Source: an uncultured Hyphomicrobiales bacterium | GTDB taxonomy: Bacteria > Pseudomonadota > Alphaproteobacteria > Rhizobiales > Xanthobacteraceae | Direction: 5' to 3' | DNA: 64,000 nucleotides | Assembly (NCBI GenBank): GCA_903878085.1 | Contig: CAIRGJ010000004.1 | Coordinates: forward strand, 1-64,000 | Shown here: piece by piece, positions 45,647-64,000 of the stretch | Position numbering within the stretch: the stretch's first letter is position 1 | Layout: each line of letters starts with the position of its first letter | Notes under the pieces: model-generated | Told to the model about the DNA's origin: nothing | Databases searched by the model: none | The model's input: the letters and a program-made list of their open reading frames with translations, nothing else | Position numbers and translations under genes: made by a program

Positions 45647-45666
45647 CTATCGTCACGTCTGCTTTA

Positions 45667-45730: not shown

Positions 45731-45807
45731 TGACGCAATCACCCGATATTGCGTTCCCGAGGGAGGACGTATCTCCCCCTCGGGAAATGAAACTAACGCG
45801 ACTACCG

Positions 45808-47193: not shown

Positions 47194-47210
47194 GTGCCGC
47201 GGCGGACAAT

Positions 47211-48046: not shown

Positions 48047-48070
48047 GTATGGGCCATCAGCGGACATTAG
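48047..48070. repeat. Palindromic accessory-region repeat, copy 2 (partial)
   Basis: TATGGGCCATCAGCGGACATTAG combines the GGGCCA and AGCGGACATT parts of the repeat in a short form. It lies in the 268-bp gap before apbE, in which I see nothing else. Confidence 0.5.
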
Positions 48071-48132
48071 TCGCGGATACGAATTATATTGCCGATGGAG
48101 AATGATTCGCGTGGCGCTCCGGACGGTTATCC

Positions 48133-49044
48133 ATGCTTCAACTTTTCAGTTTTCCTTTTTCGGCCATGGCATCTGCATGCTCCATACACCTATACGCTGA
48201 AGTCAAAGCCGAAGCGGAAGCCGCTGCTGAAGCAGCAATGAATGAAGTTATACGAATTGAGAATCGGTATTCGCGATATCGTTCTGACGGCATACTTGCC
48301 GATATTAATGGTGTGGCAAAGCGTGCGGGTAGCATAACAGTTGACGATGAAACGGCGAAGCTAATTGACTACGCCTTTGCCTGTTACCAACGTAGCGACG
48401 GGCTGTTTGATGTCACCTCAGGCATATTGCGCAGGGTTTGGGATTTCAAGTCTGACAAGCTGCCTGACCGCAAGGTAGTCCAAGAGCTGCTGCCGTTAAT
48501 TGGTCTATCCAAAATCTCTTGGGCACGGCCGCACCTCACTTTTCCCATCGCCGGTATGGAGTTTGATTTTGGAGGGATTGGGAAGGAATACGCCGCGGAT
48601 CAAGCGGCGGCGGTCTGCATCGCGTTAGGGGCTCGCCATGGCTTGGTTGATCTTGGCGGCGACGTTGCCGTGATAGGCCCACATCCAAATTTTGCCCCAT
48701 GGAACATCGGCATCAGGCATCCACGGGACACAAAGTCCACCATCGGATCTCTGCTGCTCGATCACGGCGCACTCGCCAGTAGTGGTGATTACGAGCGATA
48801 CATGATGATTGACGGGCAGCGCTATTGTCACATCCTCAACCCGATCACGGGCTGGCCCTGCCGTGGTCTCGCGGCGGTGAGTGTAGTAGCAGACCGATGT
48901 CTAGTAGCAGGCAGCATTGCGACAATCGCAATGCTGAAGGGCCGCAGCGGCGTTAAGTGGCTAGCCGGTCTCGGCCTCAGGCATTTCGTTGTGGACGAGG
49001 GTGGCGCCGGAGACGGCGATACGATTATTCCGACATCAAATTAA
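48133..49044 (+). CDS. apbE: FAD:protein FMN transferase (ApbE-like)
   Basis: 303 aa. Attaches FMN from FAD to Thr/Ser of target flavoproteins. Motifs: MEFDFGGIGKEYAADQAA near residue 142, GLVDLGGDVAVIGPHP near 170, SSGDYERYMMIDGQRYCHILNPITGWP near 216. There is no lipobox or signal peptide, unlike most ApbE proteins, so it may act in the cytoplasm. Lower GC than core genes. No NqrB/C or other obvious FMN-binding target lies nearby. Confidence 0.88.
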   Translation: MLQLFSFPFSAMASACSIHLYAEVKAEAEAAAEAAMNEVIRIENRYSRYRSDGILADINGVAKRAGSITVDDETAKLIDYAFACYQRSDGLFDVTSGILRRVWDFKSDKLPDRKVVQELLPLIGLSKISWARPHLTFPIAGMEFDFGGIGKEYAADQAAAVCIALGARHGLVDLGGDVAVIGPHPNFAPWNIGIRHPRDTKSTIGSLLLDHGALASSGDYERYMMIDGQRYCHILNPITGWPCRGLAAVSVVADRCLVAGSIATIAMLKGRSGVKWLAGLGLRHFVVDEGGAGDGDTIIPTSN

Positions 49045-49116
49045 AATTATAGCGCGCACGACCTCGCGTAACGCGAGACGCAGTATGGGCGCATTCCATT
49101 TGGACGTGAGTGCTAA

Positions 49117-49506
49117 TTATGCCAGGATGTTGAGAGATTGAAGGCTAGAGTCTACAGTCTGGCCCGGAGCAACTGACGTGACCGCCACTGGTTTATCGGC
49201 ACGAAGTTGAGCCATCAGATCTTTCATCGTATTGACGAAATTCTGTTTCGAGACACTTCCAGACCCGCTTGGATCGAGGGCACTCCATATTGTACTGGAA
49301 CCCTGCGCTTTAAATACTGCCGGTGGATCGAGTGTTTGAAAAGCCTGGTTGAATTGGGACTGATTAATTGAACCAGCGCCAGTGGCATCGATGGCGTCAA
49401 ACAGGCTCGTCATTTTTTGGACAGGCGGCGCCATATTACCGCTCGCGCCTGAAATCATGTCGAGGCTTGGGGGGCCACCAACCGCGGCAACCGCTGCTGT
49501 CATCAC
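49117..49506 (-). CDS. EF-hand-like protein with degenerate loops
   Basis: 129 aa. Two helix-loop-helix units: SLFDAIDATGAGSINQSQFNQAF (about residues 34-56) and IWSALDPSGSGSVSKQNFVNTM (about 73-94). The calcium loops keep the first Asp and central Gly but lose most acidic ligands, including the position-12 Glu, so Ca2+ binding is doubtful. No clear signal peptide. It is convergent with apbE. Confidence 0.7.
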   Translation of the reverse strand: MMTAAVAAVGGPPSLDMISGASGNMAPPVQKMTSLFDAIDATGAGSINQSQFNQAFQTLDPPAVFKAQGSSTIWSALDPSGSGSVSKQNFVNTMKDLMAQLRADKPVAVTSVAPGQTVDSSLQSLNILA

Positions 49507-49780
49507 ACTCTCCAGATAGATCCGCCTTTACGATGCGCTAACCATAGTGCCCATCTGTAAATGGCCGGTTAATTGTGGATTTTCGCATTGGTGTAATTCC
49601 GACTTTCGCGTGGAACACGATAGTTCGCCCGGTAACATCGGCATTGGCTGACGCAGCCGCACTGCAAGTGCCTTTCGGTCGCCGCACAATTGCAAGGCCG
49701 CCCGGTGCCTCGCAGCGTCGCTTGGCTGCCCAATAACCTTGGTCAAGAAGGAAGGATGATTCCCTGCATCTGTGAAGATC

Positions 49781-49860
49781 GAATGTCCGCCCTGGGTCAT
49801 TAGGCAACATGGCAGCACGTCCGCGTTATGTCCGTTCTTCCCCTCAAAGCAGACATTCGG
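49781..49860. repeat. Palindromic accessory-region repeat, copy 3 (longest)
   Basis: About 80 bp with near-perfect terminal inverted repeats GAATGTCCGC ... GCAGACATTC and an internal GTCCGCGTTATGTCCGTTC. It lies in the 413-bp interval between the EF-hand gene and the TPM genes, which otherwise holds no convincing gene. Confidence 0.65.
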
Positions 49861-49919
49861 CAACTCGACCGGCATGTCGAACCTCGTCACCATCAAAATT
49901 GACGTTTGATCTATCCGGT

Positions 49920-50531
49920 TTAGATCAAATGAATTCGGTCCGGCAGTTTATCTCGGCTGGCCTCGGAGCGCGGAAAATGCTGGGCCAGTTCGTCGCCACA
50001 CAGGCCTATGGCTGTAACAAAGCCATCCGCGATACGCCGGTCACGCATGTGTGCAATGAGAGCATCAACGGCCGCTTGCCAATGCGATTGAGGAACGCGC
50101 GACGAAATTCCCTCGTCGGCAATAATTCGTGCATAACGCTCGGCCAGAGAAACGAAGATCAGAATACTGGAGCGGTCCATTTTCCGCCCAAGATCACGAA
50201 TTGTGAACTGCTCCATAGCCACGCGATGAGCGATGGCGCGGCGCGCTCTCCGGGGCATCAGCGCGACCCGAATACGTGGCAGACAGAGCATAATCGTAAG
50301 AACCACGAAAATGATGATTTGCAGCGATAGGATTCGGTAAATCGCCATCGCCGTTAAAAGCACCAGCCCCCAAGGCAGCGCGAGCGCGATCACAGCAGCG
50401 ATAAAAATCGGCAATGCCGTGACGTGAGATGATGTCCGCGCCAGGACGCAGACGATCTCCCCTGACGTCCGTGCCTCTGCTGCGCGGATAGCGTCAGAAA
50501 TGCGATCGCGGTCCTGCGCCGAAATGGTCAT
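49920..50531 (-). CDS. TPM-domain membrane protein (COG3762 type)
   Basis: 203 aa. RISDAIRAAEARTSGEIVCVLAR at the start and SILIFVSLAERYARIIADEGI near residue 125 are TPM-domain features; hydrophobic segments at about 40-60 and 65-85. Its ATG overlaps the stop of the preceding TPM gene (TGATG), completing a LemA-TPM-TPM set. The group is widely conserved, thought to act at the membrane, but its biochemical role is not settled. Confidence 0.85.
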   Translation of the reverse strand: MTISAQDRDRISDAIRAAEARTSGEIVCVLARTSSHVTALPIFIAAVIALALPWGLVLLTAMAIYRILSLQIIIFVVLTIMLCLPRIRVALMPRRARRAIAHRVAMEQFTIRDLGRKMDRSSILIFVSLAERYARIIADEGISSRVPQSHWQAAVDALIAHMRDRRIADGFVTAIGLCGDELAQHFPRSEASRDKLPDRIHLI

Positions 50532-51310
50532 CACCAACTCCCCGAAGCCCCGCCGCCACCCGACGAACCGCCGCCGCCCGAAAATCCGCCCCCGCTTGAA
50601 GATCCACTACTACTGCTTGAGTTGCCCGAGCTGACCAGAATGTTGAGCAGGATGTTGAAGAAGATCCAGCGGAAGCCGGGGGAAACGATGAGCATCACAC
50701 CGACGACGATGATGACAAGCACAATTAGCCAGTTGAACCGATCGCCGGATGGTTGACTGTCAAGCCGTAGCGAAGGGCGCTTTTCCCATTCGGAAGAGTC
50801 GGTCGTAAGTACTGTAATGATGTCGTCAACGCCGCGAGAGATGCCGCCGCTGAAATCACCGCTTTTGAAGCGCGGGGTGATGGCATTCGTGATGATCACC
50901 TTCCCCAGCGCATCGGTAAGCGTACCCTCAAGGCCATAGCCGACCTCAATGCGGACACGCCGCTCGTTCGGTGCAACGAGCAACAGCACACCGTTGTTCT
51001 TTGTTTTCTCGCCTAGCTTCCAGTCTCGGAATAAGCCGTTGGCGTAAGGCTCGATCTCCTGGCCTTCAAGGGAGGCTATTGTGGCGACAACGAGCTGAAT
51101 TCCCGACTTGGCTTCCAGGTCGGCAAGCTTTGGCTCGATTGAGCGGCGCGCGTCGGCCGAAATAATATTCGCTTGATCGACGATTCGGCCCGAGAGCGCT
51201 GGGAAGGTCAGCGCGAAGGCGGTGACGATTGTGCACGCCAGAGCCACGGCCGCGATGGCGAAACGCCATGCTTGCTGTGAGACGCGCCAGAATCGTCCGG
51301 CAATGTTCAT
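50531..51310 (-). CDS. TPM-domain exported protein with Gly/Ser tail (YgcG-like)
   Basis: 259 aa. N-terminal signal/TM segment (about residues 13-36), a TPM domain (FPALSGRIVDQANIISADARRSIEPKLADLE...NGVLLLVAPNERRVRIEVGYGLEG), one TM helix near 195-225 and a flexible tail rich in Gly/Ser, as usual for the family. It is 28 bp downstream of lemA. Confidence 0.88.
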   Translation of the reverse strand: MNIAGRFWRVSQQAWRFAIAAVALACTIVTAFALTFPALSGRIVDQANIISADARRSIEPKLADLEAKSGIQLVVATIASLEGQEIEPYANGLFRDWKLGEKTKNNGVLLLVAPNERRVRIEVGYGLEGTLTDALGKVIITNAITPRFKSGDFSGGISRGVDDIITVLTTDSSEWEKRPSLRLDSQPSGDRFNWLIVLVIIVVGVMLIVSPGFRWIFFNILLNILVSSGNSSSSSGSSSGGGFSGGGGSSGGGGASGSW

Positions 51311-51338
51311 GTCGAAGTCTTGATATCGCGACCGAATA

Positions 51339-51938
51339 TCAGAATTTCACCTGCGGTGGGGTCTGCGCATTTTCATTCGCGGCGAACTCCGCCATCGGCT
51401 TGTTAGAGCGAAATACGGTCGCGGCCCACAAAATGCCGGGGAAGGTCTTTAGCTCGGTGTTGTAAATCCGCACGGCCTCAATGTAGTCACGGCGAGCGAC
51501 GGCAATGCGATTTTCGGTGCCCTCAAGCTGAGATTGCAGCGCCAAAAAATTCTGATTCGATTTCAGATCCGGATAATTCTCGCTTACCGCTAGAAGCCGG
51601 CCGAGGGCACCAGAAAGCTGGTTTTGGGCGTCCTGGAACTGCTTCAGCTTTTCGGGATCGCTGAGCTGGGATACATCGATTTTGACCTGCGTCGCTTTCG
51701 CTCGTGCCTCGACCACGGCGGTCAGGACCTCCCGTTCCTGTTTGGCATAGCCTTGGACGGTGGCGACGAGATTGGGAATGAGGTCGGCGCGGCGCTGGTA
51801 GTTATTCTGCACATCCGCCCATTTCGCCTTGGCCTGTTCCTCGGCCGTCGGAATAGTGTTGTAGCCGCAGGCTGACACTGTGAGGCCCAAGAGAACAGCG
51901 GTTAGCCCCGCGCGCACGCTCGAAAGGGAAACAGTCAT
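51339..51938 (-). CDS. lemA: LemA family protein
   Basis: 199 aa. Lipoprotein-like N-terminus (LLGLTVSACGYN, Cys near residue 24), then the LemA helical domain: VQNNYQRRADLIPNLVATVQGYAKQEREVL, ENYPDLKSNQNFLALQSQLEGTENRIAVARRDYIEAVRIYNT and FPGILWAA. First gene of the LemA-TPM-TPM unit. Confidence 0.92.
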   Translation of the reverse strand: MTVSLSSVRAGLTAVLLGLTVSACGYNTIPTAEEQAKAKWADVQNNYQRRADLIPNLVATVQGYAKQEREVLTAVVEARAKATQVKIDVSQLSDPEKLKQFQDAQNQLSGALGRLLAVSENYPDLKSNQNFLALQSQLEGTENRIAVARRDYIEAVRIYNTELKTFPGILWAATVFRSNKPMAEFAANENAQTPPQVKF

Positions 51939-51998
51939 GAAGGCTTCCTGCTTGGTTCAGAAATAGGTAGCCAAAAACGGTTTGATGTTAGCTTGTTA

Positions 51999-52250
51999 TC
52001 AGCGATGCGGGCGTTTTACGCCACGTTTCTTTTTAGCCTTCTTCTTTGATTTCATTACGACCTTCTTTTTCTTCCGGCTCACCTTTGCTTTCCGCTTCTT
52101 TTTGGTCTGGGCTGGCCTCATTTCCTCTTCTACCGCCAATTCAAGCACGCCAAGCTGTGAGCCTGTGGACGCTACGCTTGCGGCATCCACAATATCGCTA
52201 ACCGCTTCACCGATCATCCCCACAACTGAGTGCGGCTTTTTCTTTGCCAT
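51999..52250 (-). CDS. Small lysine-rich, histone-like-tailed protein
   Basis: 83 aa. A short N-terminal helical part (VVGMIGEAVSDIVDAASVAS) followed by a C-terminal tail of about 35 residues that is mostly Lys/Arg (QTKKKRKAKVSRKKKKVV). The tail resembles H1-like nucleoid proteins and suggests nucleic-acid binding (inference). It lies upstream of lemA on the same strand, 60 bp away. Confidence 0.6.
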   Translation of the reverse strand: MAKKKPHSVVGMIGEAVSDIVDAASVASTGSQLGVLELAVEEEMRPAQTKKKRKAKVSRKKKKVVMKSKKKAKKKRGVKRPHR

Positions 52251-52375
52251 ATCCCCAACCCCATTTGTTCAAAAGCATCGTTTCATTAGTGCCCCAGAGC
52301 GATCAGATGGAGTTCGGATTCGTTTTAGGGCCCGTGGACTCAGTATTTTGCGTTGGAGGCTAGTAGGGTATTCGG

Positions 52376-52447
52376 TCGCTATTGGGGGAAGAGCAGACAT
52401 TCACTGCAACGCGGCGAATGGTCGCGAAGGGCCATTAGCGACATTGG
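52376..52447. repeat. Palindromic accessory-region repeat, copy 4
   Basis: GTCGCTATTGGGGGAAGAGCAGACATTC ... GGGCCATTAGCGACATT: the same two half elements as copy 1, about 40 bp apart. It lies in the gap before the DASS transporter stop. Confidence 0.65.
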
Positions 52448-52455
52448 AAACGATT

Positions 52456-53943
52456 TTACAGCATAATTAAAGGAACTCCGATGCAGAGTAAGGCGGCCAA
52501 GAATATGAGTCCGAAGATCGTTCCCAGCCGCCAGAACTCCGGCGACGTGATGTAGCCGCTGTTGTAGTAGGGCAGCGCGGCGCCCGTGGCATACGGGGTG
52601 ATCACCGCCATGATGCCGGTGGTCAGCGCCAGCGCCAGCGCGAATTTGTCCAGCGGCAATCCCTTGATGCCCATTCCGACCGCCAGCACGACCGGCAGCA
52701 TAGCGGTGGTATGGGCAGTCAGACTCGCGAACATGTAATGCGAGAAGAAATACACCGACACCAGGACTACGATCATCACGGTCGGCGGTAGCCCGCCGAT
52801 GTGGTCGGCGACGAAAACGGCGAACCATTTGATGAAGCCAGAGCGCGCTAGGCCGTCCGCCATGGTGACAAGCAACGCGAGCAGCGCAATCGTCGTCCAG
52901 GCGGCATCGTTCTTCGCCATATCGTTCCAAGTGATGATTCCGGTGACAAGCATGAGCGATACGACGATCAATGCCGCTGTCGCGGCATCGACGTAATCGC
53001 CGCCGCCAACCCATAGCGTGATTGCGATCAGCACTAAGACGGTCAAGATGATCTCGCGAACCGTCATGCCACCCATCTTCTTGAGTTCGCCGGCAGCCCA
53101 TTCCGGCACCGCAGGGCTGTGCTTGATTCCGGGTGGATAGACCCAATAGACAAGCACCGGTAGCGCCAGTAGCAGCGGGATGGCGAACGGGGCGGAAGCC
53201 GTGAACCATTGTCGATAGGTGATTTCGACATGAAGAATTTTACGAATGAATTCGAGTGCGAGAAAATTCGGCGCGCAGGCGGTCATAAAAAGGGAACTGG
53301 TGATGCAACTCGCAGCGAACGTAGTCCACAAGATGTAGCCGCCGATCTTGCGCGCAGACGGATCGTGCGGTTTGGAATCGTAGATCGGCGGCAAGTTGAC
53401 CACAACGGGAAACAACGTTCCGGCGCTGCGTGCGGTATTGGATGGAGTGAACGGCGCGAGGATCGTATCGGCGAAAGTGGTAGCGTAGCCGAGCGAGAGG
53501 GTACTGCGGCCAAGCGCTTTGACAAGAACCAGCGCGATACGCCGGCCGAGACCGGTCTTTTTGTAGCCGAGCGCAAACATGAAGGCCGCGCCGACCAGCC
53601 ATACGGTGCTGCTGGCAAACCCGGACAAGGCCCATTTGATAGCTTCACCCGCGGCGTTGAAACCCGGTTTAGCAAGGTCGCTGGCGCCAAAAAGCGTCCA
53701 CTTCGACAGAACAGCGACGGTCGTCACGCCGATCAGCCCGACGGCTGGGTTCGGCAGCGGTTCAAGCACCAATCCGGCAATGACGACGGAGAAGATCGCA
53801 AAATAATACCAAGTATGCTGCTCCAGACCTTGCGGGGGCGGCAGAACGGCGATGATCGCGATAACCGCCAAGGGGACGGCGATGCGCCACCACTGCGGCG
53901 CTTTTGTTTCCACGGGTGGTTCTGAAACTGTCGTGGACGACAT
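52456..53943 (-). CDS. DASS/SLC13-family anion symporter
   Basis: 495 aa, about 12 hydrophobic segments. Family features: SKWTLFGASDLAKPGFNAAGEAIKWALSGFAS, TILAPFTPSNTARSAGTLFPVV (SNT motif near residue 170) and a second ALALTTGIMAVITPYATGAALPYY near 430. Related proteins carry di- or tricarboxylates; chloroplast-type 2-oxoglutarate/malate translocators are close in pattern. GGGAGGG 3 nt before the ATG at 53943 sets the start. It lies downstream of a PrpD-family gene, which would fit a citrate-like substrate (inference). Confidence 0.88.
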   Translation of the reverse strand: MSSTTVSEPPVETKAPQWWRIAVPLAVIAIIAVLPPPQGLEQHTWYYFAIFSVVIAGLVLEPLPNPAVGLIGVTTVAVLSKWTLFGASDLAKPGFNAAGEAIKWALSGFASSTVWLVGAAFMFALGYKKTGLGRRIALVLVKALGRSTLSLGYATTFADTILAPFTPSNTARSAGTLFPVVVNLPPIYDSKPHDPSARKIGGYILWTTFAASCITSSLFMTACAPNFLALEFIRKILHVEITYRQWFTASAPFAIPLLLALPVLVYWVYPPGIKHSPAVPEWAAGELKKMGGMTVREIILTVLVLIAITLWVGGGDYVDAATAALIVVSLMLVTGIITWNDMAKNDAAWTTIALLALLVTMADGLARSGFIKWFAVFVADHIGGLPPTVMIVVLVSVYFFSHYMFASLTAHTTAMLPVVLAVGMGIKGLPLDKFALALALTTGIMAVITPYATGAALPYYNSGYITSPEFWRLGTIFGLIFLAALLCIGVPLIML

Positions 53944-54059
53944 GAAGCCCTCCCACACGAGCGTAAAGTCGCTATTTGTCCTTTATCGGGGCAACGCTTT
54001 ATGCCGGCGTTGATCTACCTCAAGGGCGCGCATGACGGCAGCGGAAATTGCGCGCTAGG

Positions 54060-55406
54060 TCATGACGGGGCTCGCAGCTTGTCCATGAAATCGCATACCG
54101 GCAGGAGTTTCATGGTTTCGGCATCCAGCAGTTGTGCCAGCAGGTCGCTGCGAAACGGCTCGAGCCAATGATAGCACGTCAGGGCGTGGAATTTGTCCGT
54201 GAGCATCGGCAGGGCGCCATCCCGCCGCGACGGATCGCCGATCGGGAATGCAGTTTCTTCCAATGGAGAGAGTGTTCCATCCTGAAGCTCGATCTGGATC
54301 GCATTGGCGCAGCTCCTGATCGTAAGGTCATAGTGGTCGTGGGTATAGTTGACGTCCTCCAGGACGGTGGTGCGGTCACGCAACCAATCAATACGGGGAT
54401 CGCTTGCGGATTCGTCAGAATAGTCGTCCGAGATTAGGCGGCCGCGCAAAAGGGCGATAGCAACCGCGTACTGGATCGAGTGATCGCGCGCCGCACGATT
54501 CGGCAGCAATCCGGGCTTATTGATGCGTCGCAACGCTTCGTTTTGGGTGAAAATCATGATCCGCTTGACACTCGATAAGCGGCCATTCAGCCAGCGGTGT
54601 AGCCGCAGCGCGCATTCGACAGCCGTACTGGCATTGCGTTGAACCGGATGAAGTTTGAAGATTACATTGTCGAGCACGAAGCTGCCCAATGGCCGCGATA
54701 TCTTGAGGCTCGCGCCACTCAGGTACACGGCCTCAAATCCCCACGTCGGCGCTGAGAGCGCGGTGGGATATCCCATTTCGCCCCGCATCGCGTTCAGCGC
54801 TAGCCAGACCGCGCGACCCGCCGCGTCGCCGCCTGCCCAGCCTTTGCGTGGGCCGGCATTCGGCGTGTGGCGATAGGCGTTGAGCGGATGGCCATCAAGA
54901 AATGCGTTGGAGAGAGCGCCAGCAATCGTCGTGACATCGCCGCCAAGGAGGCGCGTCGCCATAGCCGTCGATGCCACCTTGACCCCAATGACATGATCCA
55001 ATCCGACGGAGGGATCGTCGAACCGGTTGTCTGAAGCCAGCAGGCCCTGGATTTCATAGGCGCCAACCATCGCGGCATAGACATCGGCCATCAGCAGCGG
55101 AGCCGCGCCGGAGCGCCGCCGCTGTCGGCTGACATAGTCGCTTGCAGCTAGAATCGCGCCGAGATTATCGGAGGGGTGGCCACCGACAAAGGTCGTATCG
55201 CTGAAATCGAGCCAGCGGATCATAACGCCGATATCATGGGCAGCCTTTATGGGATCAACGACATGGCCGGTTCCCCAGACGGGAACGCCTTCAACAACGG
55301 TTGTGCCGGGCACCCATGCGCCAAGCCGGCGCGTGCAGTCTGGATCCCGAAGGGCCGCAATAGCGCAGCCGACGGCGTCGGTGAGGCAGAGCGCCGCGGT
55401 TCGCAA
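54060..55406 (-). CDS. MmgE/PrpD-family protein, 5' end abnormal
   Basis: 448 aa from TTG 55406. PrpD-like features: ALCLTDAVGCAIAAL, WLDFSDTTFVGGHPSDNLGAILAASDY, GLDHVIGVKVASTAMATRLLGGD, FKLHPVQRNASTAVECAL, LTDKF. The family includes 2-methylcitrate dehydratase and iminodisuccinate epimerase. N-terminal homology-like sequence (RAYDKILVQLAEYAAKVAAPTGATLRTAAL) continues upstream of the TTG to about 55480 but contains no ATG, GTG or TTG before a TGA. The native start therefore seems lost or changed. Confidence 0.75.
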   Translation of the reverse strand: MRTAALCLTDAVGCAIAALRDPDCTRRLGAWVPGTTVVEGVPVWGTGHVVDPIKAAHDIGVMIRWLDFSDTTFVGGHPSDNLGAILAASDYVSRQRRRSGAAPLLMADVYAAMVGAYEIQGLLASDNRFDDPSVGLDHVIGVKVASTAMATRLLGGDVTTIAGALSNAFLDGHPLNAYRHTPNAGPRKGWAGGDAAGRAVWLALNAMRGEMGYPTALSAPTWGFEAVYLSGASLKISRPLGSFVLDNVIFKLHPVQRNASTAVECALRLHRWLNGRLSSVKRIMIFTQNEALRRINKPGLLPNRAARDHSIQYAVAIALLRGRLISDDYSDESASDPRIDWLRDRTTVLEDVNYTHDHYDLTIRSCANAIQIELQDGTLSPLEETAFPIGDPSRRDGALPMLTDKFHALTCYHWLEPFRSDLLAQLLDAETMKLLPVCDFMDKLRAPS

Positions 55407-55503
55407 CGTCGCACCCGTGGGAGCCGCGACCTTGGCTGCATATTCGGCCAGTTGGACCAGAATCTTATCGTAGGCCCGGCTGTTCGTTGTGCTCGGTGGA
55501 ATT

Positions 55504-55749
55504 TTACGATCCGCTATGGTTGTTGATCTTGGGTTCAGTCAAATTTGAATTTGATGGTCTTTGCAACCTCGGCCCATCGCGGCTGAGAGCTTCTTCCTTG
55601 TCGGCTTGAAACGGCAGTAGCCCATTTAACCAACGATCCGACCACCGCTGTGGCCCGGCAGTGCCGCTGACTGCAGCAAAACGTTGCGCTGCAATGGGTA
55701 CTGCTGTTCCAATAGGACTTTTCGAAAGGGCGAGCCAATTTCCTGCCAG
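55504..55749 (-). pseudogene. 3' gene remnant ending at the tRNA junction
   Basis: An 81-codon open stretch without start runs from the split tRNA-Arg junction to TAA at 55504-55506 (includes NWLALSKSPIGTAVPIAA and PQRWSDRWLNGLLPFQAD). It has coding-like composition and no stop, but I do not recognise the family. Its 5' part would have been removed by the tRNA-site rearrangement. Confidence 0.35.
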
Positions 55750-55792
55750 CTTCGGAGGGCAACGCTCTATCCAGCTGAGCTACGGGCGCCTG
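55750..55792. repeat. 43-bp tRNA-Arg 5'-half direct repeat, right copy
   Basis: Identical to 44844-44886: the 5' half of tRNA-Arg (minus orientation) up to the anticodon loop, with no 3' half attached. Its upstream flank (55793-55831) still resembles the promoter region of the intact gene (GAATAGAC...AGCGGCAACGGG). Confidence 0.85.
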
Positions 55793-55817
55793 GCGACCTG
55801 AATAGACCAAACCTCCG

Positions 55818-55832
55818 CCAGCGGCAACGGGC
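55818..55832. repeat. 15-bp boundary repeat, left copy
   Basis: CCAGCGGCAACGGGC, repeated exactly at 61533-61547. The two copies bracket the 5.7-kb block with the Cys-rich operon. The sequence is part of the tRNA-Arg upstream region. Confidence 0.7.
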
Positions 55833-55940
55833 CGCTGCGCGCCGGCAGCTGTTTCTTCAAGTCGGCGCAGGGATGGGCTTGAGCGCGTTTATATCGCCCG
55901 ATGAGCCCCTTATCGGGGCTCTTGCGGGCATAGCGGAACC

Positions 55941-56810
55941 TCAGCCCGCGCGCCGTTTGCGTAAGACGGAAATTTGCGTCTTCAATGAATTAACCCCGAC
56001 TGCACCGGGCACGATTTCGTCACCGACCACATAACCCGGCGTGCCGTTGATGCCGAGCGCGCGCGCCAGCGTCGTGCTTTCCGAAATCGTCTGGTCGGCT
56101 TCGGCGCTGGCCATGTCGCGCTCCAAGCGCGCCATGTCGAGGCCGGCGCCGGAGGCCGCCGCCATCGCGCTATCTTTGTTCGCCTGACCGCGGTCGCCCA
56201 TCATTTTTTGGTGGAAGGCGAAATATTTGCCGCCGTTTGAATCCTGCATGCGCACAGCGACCGCGACCCGCGCCGCCTCCACCGAGCCGGGACCCAGGAT
56301 CGGAAATTCCTTGAGCACGATCTTGAGGTTCGGATCGTCCTTCAAGAGCGCCAGCGTATCGGCCAGCGCCCGCTTGCAGTAGCCACAGTTGTAATCGAAG
56401 AACTCGACCAGCGTGACGTCGCCTTGCGGATTGCCGATCGTGACCTGGCGCGCGGATGTGAACAGTAACGCGGCATTGCTCTTGATCGCGGCCGACTTGT
56501 CGGCGGCACTCGGCCCTTGCGCGGTTGCCGGCGTGCGCCGCTTGATCAGTTCAGTCAGCGCCTCCTGAAGCACGTCGGGATTCTTGACAAGGTAATCCTT
56601 GACGATGCGCTGCACGTCCTCGGGGTGCTTGGTGAGATAGTCCTGCACGATCGCCTCGATCTCGGCGCGCTGCGCTTTTTGCAGCAAGTAATCCTTTACG
56701 ACGGTATCCATGTCCGGGCGCGAGGCTTGCGCGTTGCCGGCGCTTGGTATCGCCACCATCAAGATGGTGAAAGCCATCGCGGCAACGATTGTGCGGATCG
56801 ACGGGTGCAT
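55941..56810 (-). CDS. DsbA/ScsC-like periplasmic thiol oxidoreductase
   Basis: 289 aa. Signal peptide (ends AGNAQA); an N-terminal helical region with three repeats of a DYL-K-P-E/D unit (residues 38-90), like the oligomerisation arms of ScsC/BcfH-type DsbA relatives; then a thioredoxin fold with FFDYNCGYCK (C142-G-Y-C145) and cis-Pro loop INGTPGYV near residue 255. Such oligomeric forms can act as disulfide isomerases. It is last in a five-gene operon whose other products are Cys-rich, which makes it a likely dedicated folding enzyme (inference). Confidence 0.9.
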   Translation of the reverse strand: MHPSIRTIVAAMAFTILMVAIPSAGNAQASRPDMDTVVKDYLLQKAQRAEIEAIVQDYLTKHPEDVQRIVKDYLVKNPDVLQEALTELIKRRTPATAQGPSAADKSAAIKSNAALLFTSARQVTIGNPQGDVTLVEFFDYNCGYCKRALADTLALLKDDPNLKIVLKEFPILGPGSVEAARVAVAVRMQDSNGGKYFAFHQKMMGDRGQANKDSAMAAASGAGLDMARLERDMASAEADQTISESTTLARALGINGTPGYVVGDEIVPGAVGVNSLKTQISVLRKRRAG

Positions 56811-56882
56811 GGAATTCTCCTTCGCAGAGTCAGGCAGCTTTACAACAAGGCAAGTCCAGACAGGGTCGCACGAATAACAGGC

Positions 56883-57230
56883 TCATCCCGGGGGTCTCGT
56901 CGAGCTCGGGCGGCGGCACTTGCAATGCCCAGCCTCCAGCGTCCACGTACAGCCAAATTCGGCCGCGATATTAGGCCTGACCTCGATGATGTCCTTGATA
57001 TCGGCGCGGCCGCAATACCAGCGCCCACAGGCGTCCTGCCGGACGACGCCAGGCCGGGTGTCGGTCTTCCGGCTGCACGTGTCGCCCTGCTTCATCAGGG
57101 CCCGCGGCGGGGTCGATTGCGGCGCGAGCTGGGCCATCGCCGGCAGGGTGCTCGCGGCGAACACAAGGGCGACGGCCATCGCACGATAAACCGCAGTATT
57201 GTTGAACCCGTGTCGCATCGACGTTTTCAT
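56883..57230 (-). CDS. Small secreted six-cysteine protein
   Basis: 115 aa. Signal peptide (residues 1-34, ends LPAMAQ) and a mature domain with six Cys (DTCSRK, DACGRWYCGR, FGCTW, GHCKCRR), probably three disulfides. No family recognised. Its ATG overlaps the stop of the 823-aa gene (ATGA), so the two are translationally coupled and are likely partners. Confidence 0.75.
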   Translation of the reverse strand: MKTSMRHGFNNTAVYRAMAVALVFAASTLPAMAQLAPQSTPPRALMKQGDTCSRKTDTRPGVVRQDACGRWYCGRADIKDIIEVRPNIAAEFGCTWTLEAGHCKCRRPSSTRPPG

Positions 57231-59698
57231 CTCCCCCGATATGGCGGTGCTGGTACCGGTGCTGTCACCGGTGCTGTTACCGGAGAATTGAGGACCGGTG
57301 GCGAGCCGGGATGCGGCCCTTTGGTGGCGGGAATATTGGGCTGCGGCTCATCGTCTAAACCTAGCACGCAGCCGGTGCCCGCTTTGTTCAGCACGCGGCC
57401 GGGCGGACAATTGATCGGCGTTGGCCGCGGGGTCGTGGCCTGCCGCTTCGGCTCGTCTTGCTTTTTCAGGACTGGGCAACTGCCGTCGGCGCGCGGCGTT
57501 CCGACCGCACATTTTTTCTCAGGCCGGCCGGTTTTCTTTGGCAAGGTTTTTGGAATCGTAAATTGAGGCGGGCCGCTCTTCGTCAGCGCCGGGATGCCGA
57601 CTTTAGGCGTCACGCAACGCGTGCGATCTTCATTCAGCACCAGATAGGCTGGGCAGTTCAACGACGGAATGTAGTTCGGCACCACCAGCCCGGCCCCGCT
57701 TGGTTTCATATTCGGCGGCTTGGTCAGGAGGCAGACATTTTCCACCCGGGTCAAATCGCCACACGACATGCATTTATTGTAAGGGTCTTTGGGGTCGGGG
57801 ACCGAATTGCCGCTGCATGTTTTGAATGGCCGTTTAGACGGCGGCGCCGAGCAGAGCAGGTTGCCGGCGGCTATTGCGGCCTGAGCTTCGTCCTGCGTAT
57901 TGACGTTTACGCAAGGGAGACACTTACCACCGAGACCAAAGCCCCAGCCCGACAAGAGCGTGTCGGGCGGACATACCGAACAGGCGCCGTCGACGTTGCC
58001 CTGGTTTTCCGGGCACGTGCACGACGCGAGGCCAGCGACCGAGTAGTAGGAGGCCCCGGTGGGACAGGAATCGCACGTATTCGTCGTGGAATTAGCGACG
58101 GTCTCACCGGTGCAGGGCGTGCAATGGGCGTCTGTTTTTTTAAATTCTCCGCCACCAAGGGTAATTATTTCGTTTGATCCGCAGTCGATCACATTCTTGC
58201 ACACCATGTTCACGTAATCGGGGTCCTGGGCCGAATTGCACTGCAGGTCCGTCACGCACACACCGTTCTGCTTGGTGGTGCCTTCCTTGCAATCGCAAAC
58301 GAAACCCTGCAGCGAAAAATCCGCCGAGCCGGCGTCGGAGAATTTCACCGGCCGGGGAGCCTCACCGGGTCCGCAGCTATTGGCGCTAAAACAGGCCGTC
58401 CCGCCGGCGTTGAGATATTGTCCCTTCGAAGCGTCGCACGTATTGCAAGACTGTGTGCCTGGGTTGAGATACTCGTTCGCTTGACAGCTGACGCAGTTGT
58501 GCTGGGTCGCATCCGGGTGTGCGCGAGAACCACAGCTCGAGCACGCGCCCTTGATATCCTCCCAGTTGTCGTGGGCAATTTGACCGGGCTCGCACAGAAC
58601 GCAAACCGGTTCACCAAACCACTGCCTTGCTCCGTTTGCAGGGCAAACGCCGCACGCAGCAGCGCCGTTGATGCCCGCCTGGACGATCGTTTCTCCCTGC
58701 CCGCACTGGCAGGTTTGTCCGTCTTTTGAAGCGCCCGCCGGACAAACGCTGCAGAAGGGTTCGTGGCCGTCCAATTTGAGGAGCTGCTGGTTGCCGGAGC
58801 AGGCGCAAACATTCGCTTCGACGAATGACTGGCCTGCATAGGGGCATACGCATTTGTAGTCGCTGCCGGCGCCGTTGGTGTTTTGACCGAGGTAAACCAT
58901 CTCTAACGGTGCGGGGCAGGAGCAAGTTTGGCCGCTGATGTTTGCGCCATCACCGTATTTTACCAAATAGCCCGTATCTCCCACTTTTTCGAGCGTAGTG
59001 CCTTCAGGCACAAAGAGCTTTCCACTTTGGCAATCGACAACCTCGGGTGGCACATCGCAACCGAAGATGCTGCAATACGCGTCTTCGAAAAATTCGCCGA
59101 CGGCGTTCGCGCCGCTCTCGAGCCCATCGGCGAAGGCGCCGACGGCATCCGCGGCGAAGTCTTTGCAGCCTTCTCCCGTGGCAATGAGCCCCTCGACCGT
59201 GGCTTTGATGTCGCCGGGAGCGCCGGCCACGGTGCAACCGCAATCGATGTAACCGGCCAGCACCGGAATCGCGTCGGTGATCGATTGGGTCGCGGTGCCG
59301 CCGGCGATGTCCGCCAGCAGGCTCGAAGCGCCCGGCGTTATTTTGTCCAAAAGCCCCGCGAGCCCCGACTCGATCAGCATCTTTGCGATGAGTGCGCCGA
59401 TCGCGGTGTCGATCATCTGGTGGCAGGCGTCCGCGCCCTCGAATTTGCCGGCGATGGCGAGCGCCGTCAGTACGCCGATGGTCGCGCCCATGATGATATC
59501 GCCACCAGCGACTGTGGACGTACACCCCGCGACCGTGATCGCTTTCGCGGCGATAATGGCTTCGGCTTCAGTCCCTTTGACGGCGAGATTGAAGCAATCG
59601 CCGAGACTCGCTTTCGCCGGCGTGGAAAAATGGACGGCGAGCACAATAGCAAGCGCCAGCCCGATCAGCTTCGCCGGCAATCCTCTGGTCCATCGCAT
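57227..59698 (-). CDS. Large secreted Cys-rich repeat protein
   Basis: 823 aa with about 58 cysteines by hand count. Signal peptide (ends TPAKAS); residues 35-235 are Ala/Gly-rich, partly hydrophobic, with paired Cys; residues 240-650 hold tandem short repeats of the type CxxCPxG...xxCxxC (SVCPAGASKDGQTCQC, GVCPANGARQW, TCDSCPTGASYYS), like the ephrin-receptor/GCC2-GCC3 growth-factor-receptor repeats of eukaryotes. The tail has two copies of NCPxxxVLNxxxTxCV and a Pro-rich PVTAPVTAPVPAPP end. No enzyme domain seen. Probably an extracellular or surface protein stabilised by many disulfides; role unknown. Confidence 0.85.
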   Translation of the reverse strand: MRWTRGLPAKLIGLALAIVLAVHFSTPAKASLGDCFNLAVKGTEAEAIIAAKAITVAGCTSTVAGGDIIMGATIGVLTALAIAGKFEGADACHQMIDTAIGALIAKMLIESGLAGLLDKITPGASSLLADIAGGTATQSITDAIPVLAGYIDCGCTVAGAPGDIKATVEGLIATGEGCKDFAADAVGAFADGLESGANAVGEFFEDAYCSIFGCDVPPEVVDCQSGKLFVPEGTTLEKVGDTGYLVKYGDGANISGQTCSCPAPLEMVYLGQNTNGAGSDYKCVCPYAGQSFVEANVCACSGNQQLLKLDGHEPFCSVCPAGASKDGQTCQCGQGETIVQAGINGAAACGVCPANGARQWFGEPVCVLCEPGQIAHDNWEDIKGACSSCGSRAHPDATQHNCVSCQANEYLNPGTQSCNTCDASKGQYLNAGGTACFSANSCGPGEAPRPVKFSDAGSADFSLQGFVCDCKEGTTKQNGVCVTDLQCNSAQDPDYVNMVCKNVIDCGSNEIITLGGGEFKKTDAHCTPCTGETVANSTTNTCDSCPTGASYYSVAGLASCTCPENQGNVDGACSVCPPDTLLSGWGFGLGGKCLPCVNVNTQDEAQAAIAAGNLLCSAPPSKRPFKTCSGNSVPDPKDPYNKCMSCGDLTRVENVCLLTKPPNMKPSGAGLVVPNYIPSLNCPAYLVLNEDRTRCVTPKVGIPALTKSGPPQFTIPKTLPKKTGRPEKKCAVGTPRADGSCPVLKKQDEPKRQATTPRPTPINCPPGRVLNKAGTGCVLGLDDEPQPNIPATKGPHPGSPPVLNSPVTAPVTAPVPAPPYRGR

Positions 59699-59730
59699 GG
59701 ATAGCGCCCCCGGCGCCCACTGCTAAGCCG

Positions 59731-60057
59731 CTAACAAGGGTTGGTACGCGACGGCACGCAGGCCGGCGGAATGACGGCCGGCCGAATGAAGGTGCCGACA
59801 CCGTAGATTGCGCTCAACTCGTGGTAATCGCGCGGAATGCCATAGCTCCCGTCCTCGCTCGGCAGCACCGGCGGCGCGGTGTACGAAATCTTCGGCTGCG
59901 TGGCGACGAACACCTGCTTGCGCAGGCTCTCGCCGAGCTCGGGCTTCACGCAGGCGCCGGAAAAAGTCTTGCCGTCGGGGCAAACGGTCAACGCGCTTGT
60001 CGGCGCGATCGCGATCGCACCGAGTAAGACGGCGGTCATCAATGTAAGCCCGCGCAT
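59731..60057 (-). CDS. Small secreted four-cysteine protein
   Basis: 108 aa. Two ATGs lie close together; AAGGAG is 6 nt before the second (60057), which I use. Signal peptide (ends PTSA), then LTVCPDGKTFSGACVKPELGESLRKQVFVATQ and a Cys-containing end PPACVPSRTNPC. Four mature Cys. It lies 11 bp after the beta-barrel gene and 32 bp before the Cys-rich gene. Confidence 0.75.
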   Translation of the reverse strand: MRGLTLMTAVLLGAIAIAPTSALTVCPDGKTFSGACVKPELGESLRKQVFVATQPKISYTAPPVLPSEDGSYGIPRDYHELSAIYGVGTFIRPAVIPPACVPSRTNPC

Positions 60058-60068
60058 GGTCATCTCCT

Positions 60069-61277
60069 TCAATATCTCACGCTGCCGCCAATCGAGGCGA
60101 CCCACGCATTGGTGGAGGACTCCGGAACGGCGCTGTTCGGAACGACGGCGTTGGTCGCGTCGATCTTGGTCGGACTGCCGCCCTCGCTGACCCATATATG
60201 TTGCAGCGACAGGTTCAAGGTGAGCTGCTTGCTGACGGCGATGGAGCCGCCGACGCCCGCATTCCAGCTGGTCTTGGCAGCCAGGAACTGGAACGTGGTC
60301 GGATCGTAGCCGTTGCGATTGCGATACAGGAAGCCAACCGTCGGCCCAACGGTGTAGTTGCTACCGGTGTAGGGCACCTCGAGCGACAGCTTGGTCACGT
60401 CGCTGTTGGAGTTGAAGGCTTCGCGCACCAGGTCGGGCACCCCGGTCGCAGGCACGTAGTTCTTTTCGAAATGCGAATAGTTGACGCCGACCTTCGTGCC
60501 CCAGTTGTCGTTCCAGGTATAGGCGGCCTTCAATCCAGCGATGATCCGGCCGCCGGCGCGATACAGCGCCACGCCATCTTGCGTCGTCGTCGTCTCCCAT
60601 GAATAAGCGAGCGAACCCTGCACGCTGAGCAGGTCACCGCTATAAGCGAGGGTGCTGTTAAGGGTGTAGACGTCGCCCGGATTGAAGCGGCTCAGGGTCG
60701 TCGTGCCTGCCTGGTCGAATGGACCGCGATAGGTGTAACCGGCGCCAAGGCCAAGCACGAACGACTCGCTGATATTGATGTTGGCGCCGATCGTCGGACC
60801 GACATTGAAACCTTCGCCGAACGCGGGTGTCGGCACGATATCGGGATCGGTTTTGTTGTTCGATTGGGTGGTGTTCGGGGCCGATGCTTTTTTCGCCGTT
60901 GGAAGATTGAAGCTGACCGATACGAATGGGGTAATTCCGTTCCAGCCCAGGTAGGTCGCAGTCGGCGTGAAATTCGTGTCGGTCGGCGTCGACACGGTGC
61001 TTGACGCCGTCGGCGTCGACTGGCGCGACCAGATCGCTCCGCCGCGCAGGAGGAAATTGAACTTCCAATCGGGATTGGGCCGTCCCGACAGTTGCACGCC
61101 GAGCGGCGCATACATTTGTGAGCCGCTGCCGCCGAGCGTGTTGGTCCAGCCGGAATACCTGACATCGGTGTTGAAAGTCGTGGACCAGGTGGGGGCCGCG
61201 GGTTGCGCCTGTACCGTCGACGCGGCCGACAAAAACCCACCAACGGCGGCACACGCTGCCGCGAAAAGCCGCCTCAT
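60069..61277 (-). CDS. Outer-membrane beta-barrel protein
   Basis: 402 aa. Signal peptide (ends STVQAQP); alternating amphipathic strands throughout (NPDWKFNFLLRGGAIW, FVLGLGAGYTYRGPF, LSVQGSLAYSWETTT, WGTKVGVNYSHFEKNY) and a terminal ...GGSVRY ending in an aromatic residue, as BAM substrates do. It resembles the 'MetA-pathway of phenol degradation'/transporter-like barrels. First gene of the five-gene operon, so it may anchor or pass the Cys-rich protein (inference). Confidence 0.82.
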   Translation of the reverse strand: MRRLFAAACAAVGGFLSAASTVQAQPAAPTWSTTFNTDVRYSGWTNTLGGSGSQMYAPLGVQLSGRPNPDWKFNFLLRGGAIWSRQSTPTASSTVSTPTDTNFTPTATYLGWNGITPFVSVSFNLPTAKKASAPNTTQSNNKTDPDIVPTPAFGEGFNVGPTIGANINISESFVLGLGAGYTYRGPFDQAGTTTLSRFNPGDVYTLNSTLAYSGDLLSVQGSLAYSWETTTTQDGVALYRAGGRIIAGLKAAYTWNDNWGTKVGVNYSHFEKNYVPATGVPDLVREAFNSNSDVTKLSLEVPYTGSNYTVGPTVGFLYRNRNGYDPTTFQFLAAKTSWNAGVGGSIAVSKQLTLNLSLQHIWVSEGGSPTKIDATNAVVPNSAVPESSTNAWVASIGGSVRY

Positions 61278-61655
61278 CGCCTCGCCCCTAAATCGTGCAG
61301 TGAAGCTCGCCCACCGGGCCCATGAACCCTAAAGACCGTGTTTATGCTTGTCGACGTTTGGCAGAGTACGAGTATTCGGCTGGCGGGACTAGGACTGGAG
61401 CGATATGGATTAGGACTACGGCGACAAAAACCAAATCAAGTCGTCGCGTTGCATCTCGGCGCGCTGGCACCGATATTTCGGTCACGAAGCCGAAAGTCTA
61501 GCAGCGGTCGATGCGTGCGGGCGAGGCGCCCCCAGCGGCAACGGGCGTGATTTTGCTCGGCCGGGGGCTGCGGCAGGCTGGTACGCCGATGTCAGCCGGG
61601 CTAGCTTTAACCCAGCCTGACCACAAAGACTCAAAACATAAAAACGGGGGAAACA
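61278..61655. promoter_or_regulatory. Divergent intergenic region upstream of the Cys-rich operon
   Basis: 378 bp without a gene. It must contain the operon promoter; TAGGACT is repeated 22 bp apart near 61386-61415. It also carries the right-hand boundary repeats (61533-61560). Confidence 0.4.
61533..61560. repeat. Boundary repeat, right copy
   Basis: 61533-61547 repeats 55818-55832 exactly (15 bp). 61535-61560 repeats 44914-44939 exactly (26 bp), a segment upstream of tRNA-Arg. Together they show that DNA once joined to the tRNA promoter is now 16.6 kb away. Confidence 0.85.
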
Positions 61656-62102
61656 ATGAATATCGATCGTCGTCACTTGCTGTTGCCGGCGCTGGCCGTC
61701 GGACTTCTGGGCGCGCTGCCGGCCTTCGCGGCGCCTGGCGATGAAGAGGCGGTCGCCAAGAACGTCGCGGCATTCCGCGCGGCGCAACTTGCGACCGACG
61801 CCAAGGCATTGGACGCGCTGACCGCGGCCGAACTCAGCTACAGCCATTCCGATGCCCGTATCGAGGACAAGGCGACCTTCATCACCAACGCCACAAAGCC
61901 GGCCACGGGCTCGCGGACGCTGGAATATCAGGACGTCAAAATCCGCGTCGTCGGCGACGCCGCCATCGTGCGGTTTCACTGGGTGTCCGAAGCTGTATCC
62001 GCCGACGGCAAGAAAAGCGGCACCAATCTCCACATCCTGATGAATTGGCAAAAACAGGGTGCGGACTGGAAGCTTCTGTCGCGCGCGGCCACCAAGCTCT
62101 GA
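61656..62102 (+). CDS. Secreted SnoaL/DUF4440-like protein
   Basis: 148 aa. Signal peptide (ends LPAFAAP), possibly Tat-like (NIDRRHLLLPAL). NTF2-like fold: EEAVAKNVAAFRAAQLATDAKALDALTAAELSYSHSDARIEDK and LHILMNWQKQGADWKLLSRAATKL. Family members bind small ligands or have lyase activity; nothing specific can be said here. Confidence 0.82.
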   Translation: MNIDRRHLLLPALAVGLLGALPAFAAPGDEEAVAKNVAAFRAAQLATDAKALDALTAAELSYSHSDARIEDKATFITNATKPATGSRTLEYQDVKIRVVGDAAIVRFHWVSEAVSADGKKSGTNLHILMNWQKQGADWKLLSRAATKL

Positions 62103-62175
62103 CCGGCTGCTCCGCGGCTAAGTCCGGCCTGACCGCCGGCGCGCCCGCGAAACCGCCGTCGGCGCGCCGTTCTAA

Positions 62176-62189
62176 TTGATTTGTATCAA
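62176..62189. promoter_or_regulatory. FNR/FixK-type binding site
   Basis: TTGATTTGTATCAA is a perfect match to the TTGAT-N4-ATCAA consensus of FNR, Anr and FixK. It lies 150 bp upstream of the molybdopterin oxidoreductase start, so that gene is probably induced at low oxygen. Confidence 0.75.
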
Positions 62190-62339
62190 TGTTCCGCGGG
62201 GTGCCGGGCGCATGCTTTGTCTCTGTTGAGGTTTTGGCCTTCGACGGAAATGCCGGGCCGATCCATTTGCTTGGGCGGCCTATGAGCGGTTCCTCCTGAC
62301 GCGCGGCAAAGATGCCGTCTTTTGCGCAGTGGAGATTTG

Positions 62340-64000
62340 ATGAACGCCGTCACGACGCAAGTCTTCAAAAGCGCCTGTCGCATGTGCCACGGCGGCTGCG
62401 GCGTTCTCGTCCATGTGGTCGACGGCGTGATCCAGAAAGTGGCGGGCAATCCGGAGTCGCCGCTCAACAAGGGGCTGCTCTGCCTGAAGGGCCCCGCCAG
62501 CACCGATATCGTCAGTCACCCCGATCGCCTGACGCATCCGATGAAGCGGATTGGCGCGCGCGGCGAAGGCAAATGGGCTCGTATCAGCTGGGAGGAAGCC
62601 TACGACATCATCGCCGACAAGCTCGAACTCATCATCAAGGAGAACGGTCCCGAGAGCATCGTCATCGGTACCGGCACCGGGCGGCATCACTGCAATTTCG
62701 TCCCTCGATTCGCCAACGCGCTCGGCACGCCGAACTGGTGCGAGCCCGGGCATGCGCAATGTTTTTTCCCGCGGGTCAATGTTACCCACCTGACCTTTGG
62801 CGGTCTTCCGGTGTGCGACTATTACGGCGATGTCGAGCCGGCTTGCGTGCTGGTCTGGGGCCACAATCCGCTTAATTCCGGCCCCGATGGCGAACTCCCC
62901 TTCCACACCCGCGATCTGATGTATGGCGGAAAGACCAAATACATCGTCGTCGATCCGCGCCGGACCAAGATCGCCGAACAAGCCGCCGTATGGCTCCAGG
63001 TGCGCCCCGGCACCGACGACGCGCTCGCTCTGGCCATGATCAACGTCATTATTGCGGAAGGGCTGCACGACAAGGAATTCGTCGCGAAATGGACCTACGG
63101 CTTCGACCAGCTGGCGGAGCATGTCCGCCTGCTGACGCCGGAATGGGCCGAGCCAATCACCTGGGTGCCGGCGGATACGATCCGCGCCGCAGCGCGGCTA
63201 TTCGCCACCACCAAACCGGCCACGCTGGAATGGGGCTGTGCGATCGAGCACACCCCGAACTCGATCCAGACCGCGCGCGCCATCTCCATCTTGCCGGCCA
63301 TCACCGGCAACATCGATATTCCCGGCGGCTGGGTGTTCGGCACGCCGACCGTCACGCCGGTGCCCTCGCTCGACGACAATTTGAGCGCGGAGACGAAAGC
63401 GAAACGGCTCGGCTCGAGCGAATTCCGCGTGCTCGGCCAGGCCAATGTGCAGCCGTCGGCGCATATCCCGGCGGTGTTCAAGGCGATGCGCACCGGCAAG
63501 CCCTATCCGGTGCGCGCCTTTATGGTTTTCGGCAACAATCCGCTGCTGAGCTACGCCAATTCGAAAGTCATCCACGAATCGCTGCAAAAGCTCGAATTCT
63601 TCATGGTCATGGAATTGTTCATGACCCCCAGCGCGGATCTCGCCGATCTGGTGCTGCCGGCGGCGAGCTGGTTCGAGGTCGATGCGATGCCGGCGTTCCC
63701 CTATTTCGCCGAGAATGCCGTGCTGGTGCAGCAGAAGATCGTGCAAGTCGGCGAATGTAAGCAGGACGAAGTGGTGTTCGCCGAGATCGCGCGACGCATG
63801 AAGCTGAAAGTCGGCACCGAGGATCCCAAGGACATCTACACCCAGCAACTCGCCGCCAATATCGGCATCACCTATGACGAATTGCGCGAGCGCGGTTCGG
63901 TCTGGCGGCCAATGACCTATCGCAAATACGAGACTCGCGGCTTCAAGACGCAATCCGGCAAGATCGAGCTCTATTCGCTGGCGCTCGAAAAGCTCGGCTA
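62340..64000 (+). CDS. Molybdopterin oxidoreductase, catalytic subunit (3' end beyond window)
   Basis: At least 553 codons; open to the window end. DMSO-reductase family: [4Fe-4S] motif C13-x2-C16-x3-C20-x27-C48, GTGTGRHHCNFVPRFANALGTPNW, then GHAQCFFPR, where Cys is a likely Mo ligand as in the polysulfide/thiosulfate reductase and acetylene-hydratase-like groups, and molybdopterin-binding stretches VLVWGHNPLNSGPDGE and VVDPRRTKIAEQA. No Tat signal at the N-terminus, so a cytoplasmic location is likely. GGAG precedes the ATG at 62340. Substrate not determinable. Confidence 0.9.
   Translation, partial: MNAVTTQVFKSACRMCHGGCGVLVHVVDGVIQKVAGNPESPLNKGLLCLKGPASTDIVSHPDRLTHPMKRIGARGEGKWARISWEEAYDIIADKLELIIKENGPESIVIGTGTGRHHCNFVPRFANALGTPNWCEPGHAQCFFPRVNVTHLTFGGLPVCDYYGDVEPACVLVWGHNPLNSGPDGELPFHTRDLMYGGKTKYIVVDPRRTKIAEQAAVWLQVRPGTDDALALAMINVIIAEGLHDKEFVAKWTYGFDQLAEHVRLLTPEWAEPITWVPADTIRAAARLFATTKPATLEWGCAIEHTPNSIQTARAISILPAITGNIDIPGGWVFGTPTVTPVPSLDDNLSAETKAKRLGSSEFRVLGQANVQPSAHIPAVFKAMRTGKPYPVRAFMVFGNNPLLSYANSKVIHESLQKLEFFMVMELFMTPSADLADLVLPAASWFEVDAMPAFPYFAENAVLVQQKIVQVGECKQDEVVFAEIARRMKLKVGTEDPKDIYTQQLAANIGITYDELRERGSVWRPMTYRKYETRGFKTQSGKIELYSLALEKLG

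Follow-up and report, generated by a model that had tools for sequence, protein, structure and literature searches.

Several described systems come close to the locus reported here. The long-stalk ScsC proteins of Caulobacter and Proteus are presented, in excerpts of the respective papers, as trimeric isomerases (PMC8900818; PMC5524982), and according to the Caulobacter excerpt the ScsC family owes its name to copper tolerance, with Cu(I) being bound by CcScsC (PMC8900818). Bordetella DsbA has been described, in a further excerpt, as a Dsb enzyme specialised for a particular client (PMC12724015). The TraA/TraB system of myxobacteria, as outlined in part of PMC12045341, has in one operon the genes for an exported Cys-rich protein and for a barrel of the outer membrane; we use it as a comparison of how such a locus might work, and for no more. 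Here we describe a Hyphomicrobiales operon that encodes an ScsC along with a barrel, a small protein and a product containing 58 Cys; the last of these would be an obvious client for a long-stalk isomerase of this type. The unit formed by the barrel, the small and the Cys-rich gene is a candidate envelope system, of which we found no description in listings of open-licence papers. If one client has an isomerase genetically tied to it, this would also offer a clean route to the question of how bacteria fold proteins with dozens of disulfides.

The operon lies in the window, by which we mean the whole 64,000-nucleotide stretch of DNA that was analysed, part of contig C4 of the source genome G000 (4.4 Mb, 64 contigs). 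Five minus-strand open reading frames fill positions 55941-61277 (Table 1). In the order of transcription they encode the barrel P0001, the 4-Cys protein P0005, the Cys-rich P0002, the 6-Cys P0003 and the thiol enzyme P0004; these contain 1, 4, 58, 6 and 2 Cys, and the genes are separated by 11, 32, -4 and 72 bp. The gaps were computed with the 4-Cys gene starting at 60057, a choice of ours, made because AAGGAG stands six bases before that ATG; the stored P0005 carries extra upstream residues compared with the 108-aa version starting there. In a crude hydropathy scan, all five proteins had a hydrophobic 12-residue stretch that starts within the first 18 residues (mean hydropathy 2.0-3.1). Strand, spacing and Cys contents were all recovered as an earlier sequence-only reading of this DNA had given them, and the signal peptides that it had assigned to all five products agree with the scan. 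No Pfam model matched P0002, P0003 or P0005 over its cut-off, and no NCBIfam model matched any of the operon proteins over its cut-off.

Table 1. The five genes of the operon in the order of transcription, with their coordinates in the window.
Feature	Position	Strand	Basis
Outer-membrane beta-barrel P0001, 402 aa, OMP_b-brl	60069..61277	-	Pfam, AlphaFold2 model, relatives
Small 4-Cys protein P0005, 108 aa, hydrophobic N-terminus, conserved barrel partner	59731..60057	-	Adjoins barrel in relatives
Cys-rich protein P0002, 823 aa, 58 Cys	57227..59698	-	ORF, composition, relatives
6-Cys protein P0003, 115 aa, hydrophobic N-terminus	56883..57230	-	ORF; without convincing relative
ScsC/DsbA-like thiol-disulfide enzyme P0004, 289 aa, CGYC, GINGTPGYV loop, repeated ScsC_N stalk motif	55941..56810	-	Pfam, solved-structure relatives, sequence

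P0004 exceeded the Pfam cut-offs of DSBA (PF01323, 92.6 bits), Thioredoxin_4 and ScsC_N (PF18312, 58.4 bits, in two stretches). Its CxxC is CGYC, as expected of a DSBA/thioredoxin domain, and a loop of the Thr-cis-Pro type is present in the sequence, its cis state being predicted. The ScsC_N part corresponds to the N-terminal helices through which ScsCs of the isomerase type trimerise, and a trimer is predicted from the family. The closest solved relatives were 3gyk, which ranked best, and the CcScsC entry 7rgv, which came second. The DSBA and ScsC_N matches and the CGYC thus favour the assignment made in the sequence-only reading, that of a putative oligomeric-type DsbA/ScsC-like enzyme. With the ScsCs of Caulobacter and Proteus P0004 shares the DSBA/thioredoxin domain with its CxxC, the Thr-Pro loop and the ScsC_N stalk. 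Unlike them, it is an extra copy that repeats the stalk motif and closes an operon for a Cys-rich protein, and the one DsbD_N protein of its genome, a candidate for the ScsB-type reductase partner, is encoded on contig C6, apart from the operon contig. The likeness to Bordetella DsbA is that of a thiol enzyme devoted to one client, a role that is proposed for P0004; judging by the excerpt (PMC12724015), that enzyme is an oxidase, whereas P0004 is a paralogue of the ScsC type with a Cys-rich gene in its operon, and its activity is predicted.

A match to P0004 was found in 100 of 100 relatives. From this list we picked 22 further ScsC loci (9.0-15.0 kb each) blind to their neighbours. Sixteen of these copies are near aroQ: 15 were recognised by the motif NGPNLN, which occurs in L087, in L088 and in all but one of the 14 loci L071, L072 and L091-L102, and one, the source genome's own copy L072, was recognised by reading, since it has the variant NGSNMN (at 9034). 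L072 is on a different contig from the operon. We write "near" and not "next to" because the distances reach ~3.5 kb. The motif was not found at the remaining six loci (L083-L086, L089, L090), nor was it present around the ScsCs of the window (in the part 45001-64000), L047 and L078. These last three are extra copies, because their genomes (G000, G042 and G048) also hold an aroQ-side ScsC (L072, L071 and L091, respectively). We therefore rejected the idea that P0004 is the housekeeping ScsC of its genome.

In G048, the extra ScsC follows two tandem Cys-rich exported genes, P0007 and P0008 (L078, 3783-8899), with 34 Cys in 423 residues and 70 in 1283; in the latter, a long first half with few Cys is seen, and the tail is Pro-rich. 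Kinship of these proteins to P0002 is without support: BLASTP gave E 0.013 for a Cys-rich part, and for P0007 and the N-domain of P0002 the hhalign probability was 0.9% (single sequence against profile). The idea of a dedicated foldase is strengthened by this locus, since here an extra ScsC follows two other Cys-rich genes. Among the 22 other ScsC loci, there was no ORF of at least 100 aa with at least 22 Cys. A looser Cys filter returned 16 ORFs in 11 of the 22 loci, with a maximum of 21 Cys, which we discounted by eye as Arg-rich shadow frames; the three loci with an extra ScsC (window, L047, L078) likewise contain shadow frames that it marks.

The repeated stalk motif, scored by reading the N-termini and with the variants of L078 counted, was seen in all three extra ScsCs, compared with one of the 22 others (L088). 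In a tree that includes the stalk, the three extra ScsCs form one clade (100/99), but when the catalytic domain was used alone, a single origin was recovered in 16% of 200 bootstrap trees, so that the stalk may be what holds the clade together. The sequences are compatible both with one origin of the extra ScsCs and with two or more recruitments. Because the operon of the window and that of G042 are the same one, they count as a single case, which leaves two contexts.

P0002 itself is 7.0% Cys, the highest of the 45 window ORFs of at least 300 aa (the runner-up has 4.3%), and comprises an Ala-rich N-domain (~30-235), a Cys-rich middle and a Pro-rich tail. Its relatives and the comparison with other ORFs rule out chance enrichment in Cys. 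It contains 11 CxxC, a count without discriminating value, the Cys-rich ORFs of G048 having 1 and 0. The repeats had been called eukaryote-like; of this the resemblance in Cys spacing stands, and the profile of P0002 gave no match to solved structures at E<=1. An AlphaFold2 model of the N-domain (3 sequences, mean pLDDT 43.2) was helical and too poor for use.

Searches with the single P0002 sequence in 100 relatives and in 391 family genomes each gave G000, G029 and a weak match in G040 (E 8e-4), which was dropped because by eye the ORF is rich in Lys and Pro. When the copies of the window, G042 and G029 were combined into a profile, the 391 family genomes yielded those three and no others. 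With an N-domain profile, 5 of 397 genomes had matches, namely the source genome, G466 and G531, both in another family, and two weak ones that were dropped (G675 and G570, in ORFs with 4 and 3 Cys). A later profile matched the source genome as the sole one in 289 genomes of the class. The genomes behind L052 and L054-L064, 12 in all, were also searched with the Cys-rich profile; this gave the BEIJ3 MAG, which is the place of L054, and matches in G431 (E 0.1) and G438 (E 0.07) that were dropped as weak. The genome of L052 had no Cys-rich relative beyond the E 0.1 match, and the L052 contig ends at the barrel.

Six copies of the Cys-rich gene were thus retained, and five of them (the window, L047 of G042, L054, L079 and L080) stand right after a barrel gene and a small gene; the L054 copy is cut by the contig end after the start of the N-domain. 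Two of these five loci with the order barrel-small-CysRich, those of G466 and G531, belong to another family of the order. The sixth copy (G029, L051 4974-6782) is alone among genes that by eye are unrelated, with a TAG between the N-domain and the Cys-rich part. A Cys-rich gene widespread without its neighbours, which the sequence-only reading had named as evidence against a dedicated system, is hence not what the copies found here suggest. The protein is 23-34% identical to its relatives, compared with 41% for the barrel, 44% for the small protein and ~60% for ScsC in the G042 operon, and is therefore the fastest-changing part; the N-domain Cys, the Cys-rich middle and the Pro-rich tail are kept across the relatives.

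The only Pfam match of P0001 was OMP_b-brl (PF13505), at 33.2 bits (cut-off 28.7), and an OmpA domain is absent. Its AlphaFold2 model (14 sequences, mean pLDDT 79.1, pTM 0.74) has 16 strands of at least 7 residues by manual count and stops at the last strand, with no further domain. In two-partner secretion, POTRA domains precede the barrel; P0001 differs from such barrels, having no POTRA match in Pfam at E<=1 and strands that begin at residue 32. Among the 50 Foldseek matches listed for the model, the best were the OmpG, CymA, TodX, FadL and COG4313 channels (E 1.6e-8 to 1.4e-6), from which it differs in that identity is 7-15% and TM by query 0.29-0.48. The best match of the P0001 sequence profile to solved structures had E 0.12. 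The model looks like general outer-membrane channels.

The barrel profile led to 13 loci in the named collection, which together with the window, G466 and G531 make 16 distinct loci; four of the 13 (L053, L056, L063 and L059) are places in the same-genus relatives G042, G001, G013 and G012. The contigs of L052, whose barrel is the closest (72% identical), and of L060 end within ~100 bp of the barrel, and these two loci were left out (n=14). Where the contig continues downstream (14 loci), a small gene lies next to the barrel on the same strand in 13 cases, the exception being L050. Six of the 13 small genes (L055, L057, L058, L061, L062 and L064) were absent from the profile with which small genes were sought, and so were those of L054, L079 and L080. 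Eight of the 13 pairs are without a Cys-rich gene, including pairs in Bradyrhizobium (three loci), Methylobacterium (one; the other Methylobacterium locus is L060), Microvirga and Enterovirga. Barrel and small protein are a pair more widespread than the full operon. In two Bradyrhizobium loci, a 1327-aa ORF whose start by eye resembles SARP-type regulators lies within ~3 kb of the pair (L055 2520-6503, L058 3880-7863).

The fourth and fifth genes are variable. In G042, the position of the 6-Cys protein is taken by one of 494 aa, and ScsC follows; in G466 and G531, a relative of the 494-aa protein comes after the Cys-rich gene, and no ScsC was present in the surrounding DNA examined (20.0 and 13.4 kb). 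ScsC is the last gene of the unit in two of the four loci with DNA downstream (the window and G042). No convincing relative of P0003 was found, a match in G088 (E 7e-4) being dropped because of two in-frame stops. Relatives of the 494-aa protein occur in 18 of 100 genomes, G042 included, and none in the source genome. We rejected this type of protein as a member of a fixed unit, since L108-L110 carry it without an accepted Cys-rich gene (two Cys-rich ORFs there, with 26 and 17 Cys, were discounted by eye as shadow frames). In L108 (G046), it lies beside genes that by eye look like cytochrome c maturation and two-component genes.

The locus is thus real and recurring, but loosely built. The co-occurrence of all five genes as a unit, as first proposed, does not hold: most pairs are without the Cys-rich gene, P0003 is without a convincing relative and ScsC is missing at G466 and G531. 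This last point also weighs on the claim that the thiol enzyme is dedicated to the Cys-rich product, of which another part survives, namely the extra copies beside Cys-rich genes, that of G048 included, and the lack of any ORF with at least 22 Cys around the 22 other ScsCs.

We give about an even chance to a reading in which the folding of a Cys-rich envelope protein that works with the barrel pair falls to a recruited disulfide isomerase, within a variable export-and-folding locus. Against it stand the absence of ScsC at G466 and G531, the loss of the single clade once the stalk is left out, the shared operon of window and G042, the genome of L052 with nothing better than an E 0.1 match, and the likeness of the barrel model to general channels. 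Such a locus would be built on the pair of barrel and small protein. The Cys-rich protein would be exported to the periplasm, as its hydrophobic N-terminus suggests, and the extra trimer-type ScsC, kept for this client, would sort its disulfides; the association is seen in the gene order, and the activity would be that of the family. The disulfide-braced P0002 would then stay in the envelope or reach the surface with the barrel pair, where the barrel may carry it, anchor it or simply be its companion. From the pattern of conservation, the N-domain may be a docking part and the Cys-rich middle a stiff stalk or a binding region. By their position, the 6-Cys protein here and the unrelated 494-aa-type protein in relatives may be interchangeable accessories. 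More tentatively, and at somewhat less than even chances, one may think of a client-foldase module, in which duplicated long-stalk ScsCs were recruited, perhaps repeatedly, each to one large Cys-rich exported protein, and one such protein in Hyphomicrobiales became part of a barrel-based surface assembly.

Other readings of the same genes have to be weighed. The pair could have a transport job of its own, the Cys-rich and thiol genes being separate additions co-transcribed by happenstance, a possibility that gains from the 8 of 13 pairs without a Cys-rich gene and from the variation of genes 4 and 5 among loci; however, five of six Cys-rich genes come directly after the pair, across two families of the order, and the one apart from it (G029) has a stop, so that we think this rather unlikely. 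In a metal-handling role, P0002 would be an envelope sink for copper or other metals, with ScsC holding the P0002 thiols in the reduced state, and metal or a chelate would pass through the barrel. This would fit the 11 CxxC in an 823-aa protein and the naming of the ScsC family for copper tolerance together with Cu(I) binding by CcScsC (excerpt of PMC8900818). We judge, however, that the Cys spacing and the Pro-rich tail suit a disulfide-braced protein at least equally, and a by-eye survey of the ORFs listed around the operon (window, L047, L079, L080) saw no copper gene; metal handling therefore seems to us distinctly improbable.

P0002 might also be a surface receptor or adhesin stalk with the barrel as its outer-membrane partner, much as in Myxococcus, where the Cys-rich repeats of TraA are thought, in the excerpt cited, to form a stalk, and TraB, encoded in the same operon, is an outer-membrane barrel (PMC12045341). 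The exported Cys-rich partner of TraAB has a counterpart in P0002, with its 58 Cys and a hydrophobic N-terminus that suggests export. The MYXO-CTERM sorting tag had no match in P0002 at E<=1 in the NCBIfam library, which we take to include a model of this tag, and no MYXO-CTERM or OmpA match was obtained for P0001 or P0002 at that threshold. Because two defining features are thus missing, the OmpA domain in P0001 and MYXO-CTERM in P0002, TraAB serves as a comparison and does not imply membership; the window operon moreover adds a small protein and a thiol enzyme. We hold a TraAB-like working to be very unlikely.

Neither P0001 nor P0002 had a plasmid match, and defence models matched none of 8 proteins at E<=0.01. 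Some 150 bp past the end of the operon lies a truncated copy of tRNA-Arg(CCG) (55755-55795, minus strand), whose first 40 bases are identical to those of the whole gene 11 kb off (44807-44883, minus strand) and whose 5' flank is partly similar; this copy may mark a rearrangement or an insertion site.
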